The notes beneath the pieces were generated by a model. That model ran no database searches. It was not told where the DNA came from and was given only the letters and a program-made list of their open reading frames with translations. From positions 1 to 29,774 of the IMG/VR virus record IMGVR_UViG_3300030012_002497: a stretch of DNA of 29,774 nucleotides; one strand, 5' to 3'. Source of the DNA: a virus. Shown here piece after piece: positions 1 to 29,774 of this stretch (position 1 is its first letter; the number at the start of each line of letters is the position of its first letter). Position numbers and translations under genes: made by a program.

Positions 1-771
1 TCACTTGGTGCAGGTGGATTATCTGTAGGTAGCATTTCAAATGCACAGATCGCATCAGATGCAGCAATCGCAAAATCAAAGTTAGGTGCTCTTGCAATCA
101 CCAACTCTGACGTTGACAACTCAGCAGCTATTGCAGTTTCTAAGTTAGCAGCATCAACCATTTCAGGTAAAGCATTAGGGACAAACCTTGATAACTTAAC
201 CGATGGTAATGGTATCGCAGATTTCTCATACAATGGTTCTTCTGCAGGCACTATTGCAATCGACCTTGATGGATCAACACTTGCAGTTGGTGCTTCTGGT
301 TTGAAGATCAGTGATGGTGGAGTTGGATCATCACAAATCGCTGATGATGCAATCGTTTCCGCAAAAATAGCAGATGACGCCATTGTTGCAGCACTTATTG
401 CAGATGATGCAATCACCAGTGCAGCTATAGCTGATGACGCTGTTGGAACGGCACAACTTGCAGATAATGCAGTTGATAATGCTCGTATTGCAAATGGTGC
501 AGTTTCTATTGCTAAGTTAGCTTTCCAAGCGAGACAAGATGTATTCAATCCTAATGGATCAACCCTTGCTTTCGATCTTGCCAATCAAGTAGCTCCAGAG
601 TTTGAAAACTTTGTCATGGCTTACAAGAACGGTTTGTTGCAAAGAAAGGTCGCTTCTTCTCCTGGTAATGCTGATGAATACACAGTATCAACCGCTGGTG
701 GAACTACAACTATTACATTTGGTGCAAACCTTGCAGATAGTGATGAGCTAGAAGTCAGAAGTTTAGCATAA
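1..771 (+). CDS. Tail fibre protein, 3' part (5' end outside window)
   Basis: The frame is open from the first base to the TAA at 769-771, so this is the C-terminal part of a longer protein. The visible part has Gly/Ser/Ala-rich fibre-like sequence. Six tandem ten-residue repeats built on IADDAI(V/T)xA lie at about nt 334-513, and looser copies such as AQIASDAAIAKSKL lie upstream. The last ~80 residues form a separate beta-type domain with the pattern FxNGxTxFxL...FVMAYKNGLL...D.LEV. Such low-complexity repeats are common in trimeric phage fibres, and the C-terminal domain probably faces the receptor or trimerises the shaft. It may be the other end of the gene that starts at 29507. The specific receptor is not predictable. 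Confidence 0.7.
   Translation, partial: SLGAGGLSVGSISNAQIASDAAIAKSKLGALAITNSDVDNSAAIAVSKLAASTISGKALGTNLDNLTDGNGIADFSYNGSSAGTIAIDLDGSTLAVGASGLKISDGGVGSSQIADDAIVSAKIADDAIVAALIADDAITSAAIADDAVGTAQLADNAVDNARIANGAVSIAKLAFQARQDVFNPNGSTLAFDLANQVAPEFENFVMAYKNGLLQRKVASSPGNADEYTVSTAGGTTTITFGANLADSDELEVRSLA
334..513 (+). repeat. Tandem decapeptide-coding repeats in fibre
   Basis: Six consecutive 30-nt units encode ten-residue repeats. The first three carry IADDAI at fixed positions, and the later ones drift to IADDAV, LADNAV and IANGAV. The period is exactly ten residues, which suggests a regular fibre shaft fold. Confidence 0.75.
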
Positions 772-1901: not shown

Positions 1902-2108
1902 ATGAACACAAAAACAAATAGTAAAGTTCTTCAACTAACTGAAGACATAGAATACAATAATCAAGTAGCTATCAGAAACTTAATACTTCAACTAGAAAGA
2001 GAGATGAGTATGATGAGAAGATGCTACAGAAAAGCAGAACTGAAATACTCTATTATCCCAGTTCTTAGACAATACCTTAGAGATTTAGAAATCTTAGATG
2101 ATGAATGA
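1902..2108 (+). CDS. Small helical hypothetical protein
   Basis: The 68-residue product is charged and helix-rich, with a basic stretch (REMSMMRRCYRKAELKYS) in the middle and an acidic end (DLEILDDE). No family is recognised. The ATG at 1902 was preferred over an upstream TTG at 1851, because the upstream reading would run through the GGCCG hairpin and have no ribosome-binding site; AGAGG lies about 10 nt before 1902. The stop codon lies inside the inverted copy of the 10-bp repeat and immediately before the switch-like leader at 2112. A ribosome ending here could therefore cover one arm of that structure. Confidence 0.5.
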   Translation: MNTKTNSKVLQLTEDIEYNNQVAIRNLILQLEREMSMMRRCYRKAELKYSIIPVLRQYLRDLEILDDE

Positions 2109-2260
2109 TACACATGATCTAAATAAAGTTTTATCCTCATTCAGTAGATAGTATAGTTATCATTAGAAAGAGAAGTCAGGCGCTCTTTCGAACCAGGTCA
2201 AAACTCTTTGATAAAACTTTAGAGATCATGTATTTAGCGGTGCATGATCTCACTTTTTTT
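2102..2260 (+). promoter_or_regulatory. Attenuator-like switch with terminator
   Basis: Arm 1 (2112-2120 plus 2124-2135) pairs with arm 2 (2210-2221 plus 2223-2231) to give helices of 12 and 9 perfect pairs, separated only by three unpaired As and one G. The first part of arm 2, GAGATCATG (2222-2230), also pairs perfectly with CATGATCTC (2243-2251), which is followed by AC and seven Ts: an intrinsic terminator. The two folds exclude one another. The interior holds further stems, AAAGAG (2166-2171) with CTCTTT (2183-2188) and GATA/TATC around 2147-2161. TGAATGA (2102-2108) can also pair with TCATTCA (2138-2144). The element lies between the 68-residue gene and the nuclease gene and looks like a transcription attenuator or riboregulator. 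The trigger is unknown. Confidence 0.6.
2222..2260 (+). terminator. Intrinsic terminator of the switch
   Basis: Nine perfect pairs (2222-2230 with 2243-2251) enclose a 12-nt loop. AC follows and then T7 at 2254-2260, with a second T6 about 5 nt later. It would stop transcription before the nuclease gene unless the 5' half of the stem is captured by arm 1. Confidence 0.7.
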
Positions 2261-3810: not shown

Positions 3811-4287
3811 ATGGATTCTAAACAAATAAGCAAGCAGACAGCAGATCTAATCACCCTTGTCCTATCAGGCGACTACAAGTTAGATGGATTAGAACTCAAG
3901 CCCACCCGTAAACTTATCAGACGTCAGAGAAAAGCAGATCAAGCAGTTCTCGATAAAGCTATCAAAGATGTGGTAGTGGATGTCATTGATACCCACAACA
4001 AATCGGCAGCATTACTCAAAGAGACAGCCTACTTCTCAGTTAAGCCTGCATCTGGCAGTTATGGATTACTACCCTTCATCCAGAAAGCCAAGGTCAAGGC
4101 TACCCGAGATGATGTTCTGCGTGTTATTACCCGTATGGTATTGGATGATGAGATAGAGAAGGTAGGTTTGAAAGGTGGTGTTGAGATTCCAGTAGAAGAT
4201 GCCAATAACTTCCAGATCAGATACCGTTCTATCCGTTATGCCAAGCCGACTACTGATGAGCCTGCCGTTTTCACTGAGAATAAATAG
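3811..4287 (+). CDS. Possible winged-helix DNA-binding protein
   Basis: The protein has 158 residues. The ATG at 3811 (MDSKQISKQTADL) was chosen because AAGGAG lies 8 nt before it; an ATG 30 codons upstream would place the start codon inside the promoter region. The N-terminal half is basic (KPTRKLIRRQRKADQ). The C-terminal half, from about TRDDVLRVITRMVLDDEIEK to FQIRYR, has a helix-helix-hairpin rhythm like a winged-helix domain, with a Gly-rich turn as the wing. It has its own promoter with a palindromic spacer, so autoregulation is conceivable. The family assignment is weak. Confidence 0.45.
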   Translation: MDSKQISKQTADLITLVLSGDYKLDGLELKPTRKLIRRQRKADQAVLDKAIKDVVVDVIDTHNKSAALLKETAYFSVKPASGSYGLLPFIQKAKVKATRDDVLRVITRMVLDDEIEKVGLKGGVEIPVEDANNFQIRYRSIRYAKPTTDEPAVFTENK

Positions 4288-4527
4288 CCATCACCCTTGT
4301 AAATGTGGGAGAGAGAGGGTATACTTTACATAGAATCAGGTATCACCCTCCATCCTACACCCTAGTCGACATGTAAACTGCAGTAGCACAATAGATAGGG
4401 GGTGGGGCCCCATCATGCTACAAGTCGAGTCAGTAGATCAGCTAGACGAAATGCACACCCGAAAAAAATGCCATCTGACAAAAAATGCCACAGGGGAAAA
4501 AACGAGTGCCATCTATAGGAGGACACA
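4288..4527 (+). other. Intergenic region with a G-rich stem
   Basis: About 240 bases separate the winged-helix-like gene and the gene at 4528. CACCCTA (4358-4364) can pair with the G-rich TAGGGGGTG (4396-4404). An 8-bp palindrome GGGGCCCC (4404-4411) adjoins it. TGCCATCT occurs twice (4470 and 4507) beside A-runs. No clear promoter or convincing gene is seen. It may hold a terminator or leader for the late operon. Confidence 0.35.
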
Positions 4528-4848: not shown

Positions 4849-4895
4849 CATAGATACTTATCCTTATACAGTAATAACAACTGAAGGAGAAGTGT

Positions 4896-5288
4896 ATGAA
4901 TAGTGCAGCTTGGTGGTTTGCGTGTGAGAATGATGATGATGTGAAGTTTTATAGACGACACATAGTGAAAAGCCCCGCAGTAATAGATTGGATACAAGAA
5001 CAACGCGGATGCCATTATGACAGGCACGACGTTGGTGAAGAAGAACCAAAGAAAGAGTTGAATACAGAAATACTAGGCCCTTTACTTGCAAACCTCTCAG
5101 AGCTGGATCAGAAGATCTTACGACTACACTATGTAGAAGCTCTAAAATGGCGTGAGATAAGTGAACAGTTAGGCTACAACTTATCTTACTTATGGAAGCG
5201 TGAGAAGCGTGCAATGGAAAAACTTCGGGCTATTATTGACAGGGATGGCCTATCACCTTGGAGGAAAGATGACGAAGAAGATAGATGA
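4896..5288 (+). CDS. Sigma-region-4-like regulator
   Basis: The protein has 130 residues. Residues ~67-112 (LSELDQKILRLHYVEAL, then WREISEQLGYN and LWKREKRAMEKL) match the sigma70 region 4 helix-turn-helix pattern: a first helix of the L(S)xxxxxILxLxY type, a Gly turn, and a basic recognition helix ending in a repeated-Arg/Lys stretch. The first 65 residues are unrelated and acidic. Phage proteins of this build act as late-gene activators or sigma-like factors. AGGAG lies 6 nt before the ATG. It is just upstream of the packaging genes and is the only recognisable transcription protein in the window, so it is the best candidate for late-gene control. Confidence 0.6.
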   Translation: MNSAAWWFACENDDDVKFYRRHIVKSPAVIDWIQEQRGCHYDRHDVGEEEPKKELNTEILGPLLANLSELDQKILRLHYVEALKWREISEQLGYNLSYLWKREKRAMEKLRAIIDRDGLSPWRKDDEEDR

Positions 5289-5553
5289 AAAGTTAAAGAA
5301 GAAAGCACAACATGCAGCGCGTAGTCGCAACTACAAGACACGCCTCAAGCAAGCAGTTGACAAGGGCGACTTTGAAGAAGTGGTAAAATCAATCATGCTC
5401 TTGGCCATCAAGCACAATGAAGAGACAGATTGGAAAGCCTCACCCAGAACTTGGATGGAACTATTACAAGTATTGCACAAGTTCCGAGTAGAGTTTGGCA
5501 CAACCGATTCTGACTTTGAAGAGATCTTGCGTGTTGTTCATGGTGATGACTAA
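5269..5553 (+). CDS. Hypothetical protein, candidate small terminase
   Basis: It encodes 94 residues starting MTKKIDEKLKKKAQHAARS. The ATG at 5269 was chosen for its GGAGG 4 nt upstream; an earlier in-frame ATG at 5200 lies deep inside the sigma-like gene and has no such site. The N-terminus is basic and the C-terminus acidic (TTDSDFEEILRVVHGDD), and the protein is mostly helical. It overlaps the previous gene by 20 nt and the next gene by one base. Its place two genes before the large terminase fits a small terminase subunit, but no diagnostic motif is present. Confidence 0.5.
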   Translation: MTKKIDEKLKKKAQHAARSRNYKTRLKQAVDKGDFEEVVKSIMLLAIKHNEETDWKASPRTWMELLQVLHKFRVEFGTTDSDFEEILRVVHGDD

Positions 5554-29506: not shown

Positions 29507-29774
29507 ATGCCAAACATTCAGATTAGAGGTAGTCAGATTCAAGGGGAAACCATTGAAGCCTCGAACATTAACCTATCAGGTTCATTTGACTTTAGAGCTG
29601 CGAGCGGTTTGCAGTTTCTTACAAAACCTGAAGCTGACAAATCAACATTCCCAGCAACCACACAATACGTTCATACTATTGTTTCAGGTTCTGCAATCGA
29701 TGGATTCCAAGGTGGAGATGGTATTGCCATCAATACTGGAACATCACCTGACACCATTTCAGTTGATTTAGCAA
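29507..29774 (+). CDS. Tail fibre protein, 5' part (continues past window)
   Basis: The gene starts at the ATG at 29507, with GGAGG at 29497-29501, and stays open to the last base (89 codons plus one base). It begins MPNIQIRGSQIQGETIEASN and continues FDFRAASGLQFLTKPEADKS and GDGIAINTGTSPDTISVDLA. The N-terminus would anchor to the tail, and the shaft begins with Gly/Ser-rich sequence like that at position 1. It is probably the N-terminal part of the fibre whose C-terminal part opens the window, but two distinct fibre genes cannot be excluded. Confidence 0.65.
   Translation, partial: MPNIQIRGSQIQGETIEASNINLSGSFDFRAASGLQFLTKPEADKSTFPATTQYVHTIVSGSAIDGFQGGDGIAINTGTSPDTISVDLA

Follow-up and report, generated by a model that had tools for sequence, protein, structure and literature searches.

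In bacteriophages P1 and P7, the c4 gene precedes its target and has the same orientation, the C4 RNA being cut out of a longer transcript by RNase P; OxyS, a stress RNA of Escherichia coli, has its gene at a distance from fhlA. In C4, the b' loop partly covers the ribosome-binding site of the target mRNA and the a' loop pairs upstream and gives specificity, with loop differences of a few bases separating P1 from P7 (Citron & Schuster 1990; PMC5320573, PMC12197685). OxyS makes two kissing contacts with the fhlA mRNA, one of which sequesters the ribosome-binding site (PMC2946933); likewise, RNAIII of Staphylococcus aureus arrests translation of coa through a duplex at the ribosome-binding site and a loop-loop contact (PMC2837412). 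In the rac prophage, the mRNA of the DNase RalR is repressed by the adjacent small RNA RalA (PMC4147584), and the EcoRI and Eco29kI restriction systems are also regulated by antisense RNAs (PMC3874152); these last two are of interest here because two of the phages described below have a methyltransferase gene beside the element under study.

Very little is known of the small RNAs of marine phages that have not been cultured, and it is rare for an antisense contact to be established on sequence evidence alone. In this work, a conserved element is described in the IMG/VR viral record IMGVR_UViG_3300030012_002497 (29,774 bases; this whole stretch of DNA is referred to as the window). We consider it likely, from the sequence comparison of four phages, that this element encodes an antisense small RNA of ~95 nt, which would bind the mRNA of a neighbouring nuclease gene at two places flanking the Shine-Dalgarno sequence, thereby repressing translation.

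A conserved element upstream of a nuclease gene

The genes of the window include structural genes and a gene for a sigma-region-4 protein. Both ends of the window (1-771 and 29507-29774) lie inside one tail gene, which is found whole at 856-1959 of the related contig L001; compared with L001, ~20 codons of this gene are apparently absent between the two ends of the window, and from this the genome is probably near-complete and permuted. Close relatives of the nuclease encoded at 2341-2823 were found in three IMG/VR contigs, L001 (3300030099_006284), L009 (3300029319_008047) and L103 (3300032084_001302, where the gene is truncated by the contig end); more distant relatives, 49% identical, are encoded in L101 and L102. 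The nuclease protein had no match in the phage GenBank collection, and alignments of the nuclease against genome contigs gave no relatives. The element was compared among four distinct members, i.e., the window, L001, L009 and L103. Its features in the window are the following:

2112-2135, + strand: arm 1 of a switch proposed in a preliminary description of this DNA; pairs with 2210-2231 in this phage only, not conserved
2152-2160, + strand: promoter-like motif TATAGTTAT before P2, the probable start signal of the small RNA (motif statistics)
2166-2189, + strand: hairpin P2, with the loop AAGTCAGGCG at 2173-2182, complementary to 2342-2351 in the start region of the nuclease gene
2190-2221, + strand: linker between P2 and P3, whose end (2210-2221), in arm 2 of the proposed switch, pairs with 2124-2135 in this phage
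2222-2260, + strand: P3, the hairpin of an intrinsic terminator with T7, carrying TTAGCG (2234-2239) in its apical loop (terminator scan)
2293-2301, + strand: promoter-like motif CATAGTTAT of the nuclease gene (motif statistics)
2309-2324, + strand: hairpin P4 of the nuclease leader (5' UTR), 17 nt before the start codon, with CGCTAA as its loop (2314-2319)
2331-2334, + strand: Shine-Dalgarno-like GGAG between the two contact points (sequence)
2341-2823, + strand: target gene for a 160-aa nuclease of predicted PD-(D/E)XK fold; its start, TGCCTGACTT (2342-2351), is the P2 contact

All four members share one order of parts: the motif resembling that at 2152-2160, P2, 33-49 nt, the terminator P3, a second motif, P4, 16-17 nt and the ATG, which is preceded by GGAG in every case; element and target are on the same strand, ~165-185 nt apart. 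The motif before P2 is exact in the window and L009, and degenerate in L001 (one mismatch) and L103 (two mismatches). The motif before the nuclease occupies the same place in L001 and L103, has C for G in L009, and also precedes the nuclease genes of L101, L102, L105, L106 and L107. The P2 loop AAGTCAGGC is identical in the four members and its stem differs in each phage, with five of six pairs changed on both sides; four of the five stem pairs of P4 are also changed on both sides. The loops of P3 and P4 differ between phages.

When counted over 16 related contigs, the sequence ATA[GC]TTAT is found 1.54 times per kb just upstream of genes, compared with 0.28 for the remaining intergenic DNA and 0.044 for coding DNA; copies of it precede the sigma-like, tail and nuclease genes. 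This concentration upstream of genes indicates that the motif is probably a phage promoter element. The presence of one copy before P2 and another between P3 and P4 suggests two separate RNAs, a small one spanning ~2166-2260 and the mRNA of the nuclease with its 5' end near 2305-2310. The sigma-region-4 protein gene (4853-5285) has the motif GATACTTAT before it, and its product might itself read these motifs. A further copy, ATAGTTATTACTGAGGG, belongs to a conserved noncoding block at 1645-1745, followed by a purine-rich run and by CCAGTAGAACGGCACCAGCCGGTTCGTATCGGTTTATTATCTA with a hairpin; this block is nearly identical in L001 (2550-2640) and L103 (4775-4860) and conserved far above its surroundings. 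At 1856-1870, AT-rich noncoding DNA of the window contains a GGCCG/CGGCC inverted repeat, the core of which also occurs in the noncoding DNA of L101, L102, L105 (twice) and L107.

Two predicted loop contacts with the nuclease mRNA

Over 10-11 nt, the loop of P2, AAGUCAGGC(G/A), is the complement of the start codon region of the nuclease gene, with 10 contiguous pairs in the window, 11 in L001, and 10 in both L009 and L103; the computed duplex energies range from -14.6 to -17.7 kcal/mol. No other sense-strand site of the window gives 10 pairs with this loop. Likewise, an unbiased scan of 572 sense-strand hairpins of the window singled out P2 alone as having a loop that fits a start region at a distance of 60-400 nt downstream. 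This contact is near-invariant, with one G-U pair in L009 and one in the window; since it hardly varies, what it offers is conservation by itself and not covariation. The conservation of the first codons was set aside as additional evidence because too few codons are involved.

The second contact joins the loop of the terminator hairpin P3 to that of P4. The corresponding pairs of loops are UUAGCG/CGCUAA in the window, UUGGCG/CGCCAA in L001, UUUGGCGG/CCGCCAAA in L009 and CUGCAA/UUGCAG in L103 (as DNA, TTAGCG/CGCTAA, TTGGCG/CGCCAA, TTTGGCGG/CCGCCAAA and CTGCAA/TTGCAG, respectively), so that there are three specificities among the four phages, the P3 loops of L001 and L009 having sequence in common. 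Within members, the Watson-Crick complement is 6, 6, 8 and 6 nt in the window, L001, L009 and L103, as against 2-4 when the P3 loop of the window is placed opposite the P4 loops of the other members. The P3 loop of L103 is wholly different and fits only its own leader loop, with 2 against all the others. When the leaders were shuffled, a complement as good as that observed, presented in a hairpin loop, appeared in 2032, 1207, 10 and 427 of 100000 cases (2.0%, 1.2%, 0.01% and 0.4%) for the window, L001, L009 and L103, respectively.

A hand-made alignment of the paired parts of the four members had 124 of 124 cells paired, and 16 of its 31 pairs carry changes on both sides. The covariation score was 0.715, versus a mean of 0.243 for shuffled alignments (none of 500 reached the observed value) and at most 0.117 for slid versions. 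Since this alignment was fitted to the structure, the comparisons of whole loops across members and of whole shuffled leaders constitute the independent test. The pairing with the target mRNA is thus conserved with compensatory changes, and the compensated P2, P3 and P4 together with the two loop-mRNA contacts argue for an antisense RNA rather than a switch.

From these observations, the following mechanism is proposed. The region ~2166-2260 would encode a small antisense RNA composed of P2, the linker and P3, transcribed in the same direction as the nuclease gene and just upstream of it, and ending at P3; the nuclease mRNA would be a separate molecule that begins at the next promoter motif, and the two would pair in trans. 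The P2 loop AAGUCAGGCG would pair with the start codon and first codons (UGCCUGACUU), and the P3 loop would kiss the P4 loop of the leader through 6-8 bp. With both loops bound, the ribosome-binding site would be clamped from two sides; because GGAG lies between the two contacts, this binding should block initiation of nuclease translation. The purpose may be to delay or limit a DNA-cutting enzyme. Transcription, pairing in trans, repression and purpose are in this way proposed from the sequences, the predicted structures and a complementarity that is itself conserved; given that one contact is preserved in related phages despite changes in its letters, the small RNA most likely keeps the nuclease switched off. 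As the exact contacts are predicted, and can be broken and restored, the mechanism is directly testable in a laboratory host.

Other candidate loci were considered in the related contigs. The divergent nuclease genes of L101 and L102 begin with ATGACR and are preceded, at the equivalent place (3853-3945 and 5382-5475, respectively), by a long hairpin (TCAGGTAGG/CCTATCTGA) and a terminator. They do not have the invariant P2 loop and no loop is clearly complementary to the start, hence these contigs were not taken as members; the hairpin and terminator are possibly a diverged version with another target. L105-L107, which carry a different nuclease-like gene without the element, were also left aside, as was a pattern-scan match in L099 that is antisense within a coding gene and was judged a chance match. 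L105 has a different terminator hairpin 3' of the tail gene (4305-4345) with a loop, GTAGTCAGGCG, much like that of P2; no start region matching it is found downstream.

The nuclease and other readings of the element

An AlphaFold2 model of the nuclease, built from a five-row alignment, reached a pLDDT of 71; a first model from three rows (pLDDT 38) was too poor for use. The leading structural matches were PD-(D/E)XK nucleases, i.e., I-Ssp6803I (Z 8.8), NhoI (8.4) and Hjc resolvases (7.9), with Z values that are middling even for the best (8.8). Foldseek alone gave no match at E <= 0.001, and no Pfam match was obtained for the nuclease. Residues D39, D41, E56 and K58 are invariant in the five rows, and the modelled fold together with the D...(E)xK motif places the protein in the PD-(D/E)XK group. 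Hence the target gene is predicted to code for a nuclease of this fold, which may be a resolvase, a homing-type or a degrading enzyme. In two members, a gene for an MT-A70 adenine methyltransferase is directly upstream of the element (L009 3264-3779 and L103 5205-5720).

The nuclease could be a toxin directed at the host or at rival phages, with the small RNA as its antitoxin. This type I toxin-antitoxin-like arrangement, a reading of purpose that is compatible with the antisense RNA explanation, appears rather unlikely to us. It draws on the pairing of an RNA with the mRNA of the adjacent gene, as in type I systems, which is seen here at the level of sequence, on the architecture of an RNA next to a nuclease, on the precedent of RalR/RalA, a DNase with an RNA antitoxin (PMC4147584), and on the position of the MT-A70 gene in L009 and L103, as might be that of a protective partner. 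However, in the window and L001 the methyltransferase gene does not adjoin the element, and a resolvase-like house-keeping role fits the fold equally well. By analogy with the a' loop in P1 and P7, the variable kissing loop might even be a self-recognition tag, through which a phage would silence its own nuclease mRNA and not that of a co-infecting relative; the nuclease, together with the methyltransferase that accompanies it in two members, would then form a regulated inter-phage weapon; we regard this extension as quite doubtful.

The element could instead act in cis, as part of a long leader: a transcript from upstream would read through P3, and the loops would fold onto its own start codon and P4, coupling the control of translation to termination. 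Element and target do lie on one strand, ~165-185 nt apart, every contact is possible intramolecularly, and the upstream gene ends just 5' of the element. Nevertheless, in each of the four members the way from the element to the nuclease is interrupted by the strong terminator P3 and by another promoter motif; this speaks for two distinct RNAs and makes the reading unlikely.

The preliminary description had correctly recognized a structured regulatory RNA with an intrinsic terminator, located before the nuclease gene and concerned with it, but took it for an attenuator or riboswitch-like switch in which an anti-terminator formed by arms 1 and 2 alternates with the terminator under the governance of a ribosome or a ligand. 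The pairings on which it was based do exist in the window: 2124-2135 (TAAAGTTTTATC) forms 12 pairs with 2210-2221 (GATAAAACTTTA), 2112-2120 (ACATGATCT) forms nine with 2223-2231 (AGATCATGT), and the 9-bp terminator stem formed by 2222-2230 and 2243-2251 is followed by AC and by T7 at 2254-2260 (in the terminator scan, the P3 stem reaches 13 pairs with a 4-nt loop when G-U pairs are counted). In shuffle tests (n=200), 2109-2260 and 2109-2232 folded better than every shuffle (z -2.9 and -3.5, respectively), and shuffling the upstream strand of the window reached the 12-pair inner helix in 12 of 3000 cases. In simulated growth of an upstream transcript, the arm helix dominates to ~nt 2248 and the terminator wins afterwards. 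The claim that the two states exclude each other holds for the outer nine pairs but not for the inner 12, which stop at 2221, immediately 5' of the terminator stem, and can therefore coexist with it; the free-energy optimum (-34.9 kcal/mol) contains the inner 12 pairs and the terminator together, and forcing the outer nine gives -31.1 kcal/mol, i.e., a cost of 3.8 kcal/mol.

Against the switch, the search for relatives with compensatory changes in the arms, which the preliminary description had itself named as a possible refutation, located the anti-terminator in the window only, and L001, L009 and L103 have no counterpart. In these three members, the 5' arm of the terminator finds at best an upstream partner of seven pairs, G-U included, versus nine in the window, and the inner helix is at chance level, being equalled by shuffled upstream sequence in 801, 314 and 1012 of 3000 cases. 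The suggested coupling to a ribosome finishing the neighbouring 68-codon gene, whose stop codon (2106-2108) is separated from arm 1 by three bases, is not conserved either, since this reading frame is missing in L001 and in L103 the MT-A70 gene sits between it and the element. Furthermore, a small RNA that starts at ~2166 would leave arm 1 probably upstream of its start. The switch is therefore very improbable as the function of the element, and in the window alone arm 1 could serve as an additional anti-terminator for transcripts that arrive from upstream. A closing helix, P1, was rejected as a conserved part outside the window, and its duplex-energy test was not significant in any member. 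Within 2112-2150, arm 1 carries ATGATC immediately 3' of the 68-codon gene, at the place occupied in L103 by the start of the methyltransferase gene (ATGATCAAA); the segment also has ATTCAGTAGA, a sequence found near the 3' end of the methyltransferase gene of L009. An origin of arm 1 as the remnant of a deleted methyltransferase gene was discarded, because the alignment lacked significance (shuffled sequences did as well in 29 of 300 and 150 of 300 cases).

Lastly, the loops of P3 and P4 are reverse complements, as two inverted DNA sites of one phage protein would be, but in each member they occupy the apical loops of hairpins with compensated stem changes and the P2 contact obeys the same logic, which makes binding sites at the DNA level extremely improbable.

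Comparison with described systems

The element is absent from Rfam, in agreement with the preliminary description of it as perhaps undescribed. When the gathering scores were applied to the whole window, no model matched, including those of known riboswitch and leader families; when E values up to 10 were admitted for 2050-2400, none came near its cut-off, and weak leader hits were far under theirs. Hits to mir-33 and MIR3444 were also below the cut-offs. The C4 model (RF01695) gave no match under either setting, nor in L001, L097 and L111 (the last two being the contigs of L009 and L103, respectively) with E values up to 1. No paper was found that combines phage, sRNA, kissing loop, covariation and nuclease. 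The phage antisense RNA described here is probably real and new, and none of the systems compared below is shown to be of the same RNA family.

The window resembles attenuators and riboswitch platforms in having a terminator with a competing upstream helix; however, this helix is not conserved and there is no conserved ligand-binding core. With OxyS-fhlA it shares the two contacts of one small RNA with one mRNA, but the second contact of OxyS is in the coding region, whereas the present RNA is encoded beside its target and would make its contacts on either side of the ribosome-binding site. The two-contact arrest of translation recalls RNAIII-coa; in contrast, RNAIII is much larger, chromosomal and multi-target, and its loop-loop contact is in the coding region. 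RalR/RalA is similar in arrangement, since there too a locus of phage origin combines a DNase gene with a small RNA next to it; RalA, however, requires Hfq and its pairing site is inside the coding region.

By analogy, the nearest known mechanism is that of the C4 antisense RNA of P1 and P7. In both cases a phage RNA acts, or is predicted to act, on a phage mRNA via two loops directed at the ribosome-binding region, and the P3/P4 specificity loop varies among members; this resemblance is functional only. The present RNA differs from C4 in that it has a probable start motif and a terminator of its own, and in that its target is a nuclease and not an antirepressor, a gene that a phage so small may need to hold back. 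Here, moreover, the loop of a terminator hairpin contacts the loop of an mRNA hairpin, and the other contact covers the start codon. The comparison of four metagenomic phages thus points to a specific RNA-RNA complex joined at two points, one of them a kissing loop that covaries and is made by the terminator hairpin; in contrast with C4, a terminator would here double as an antisense seed.
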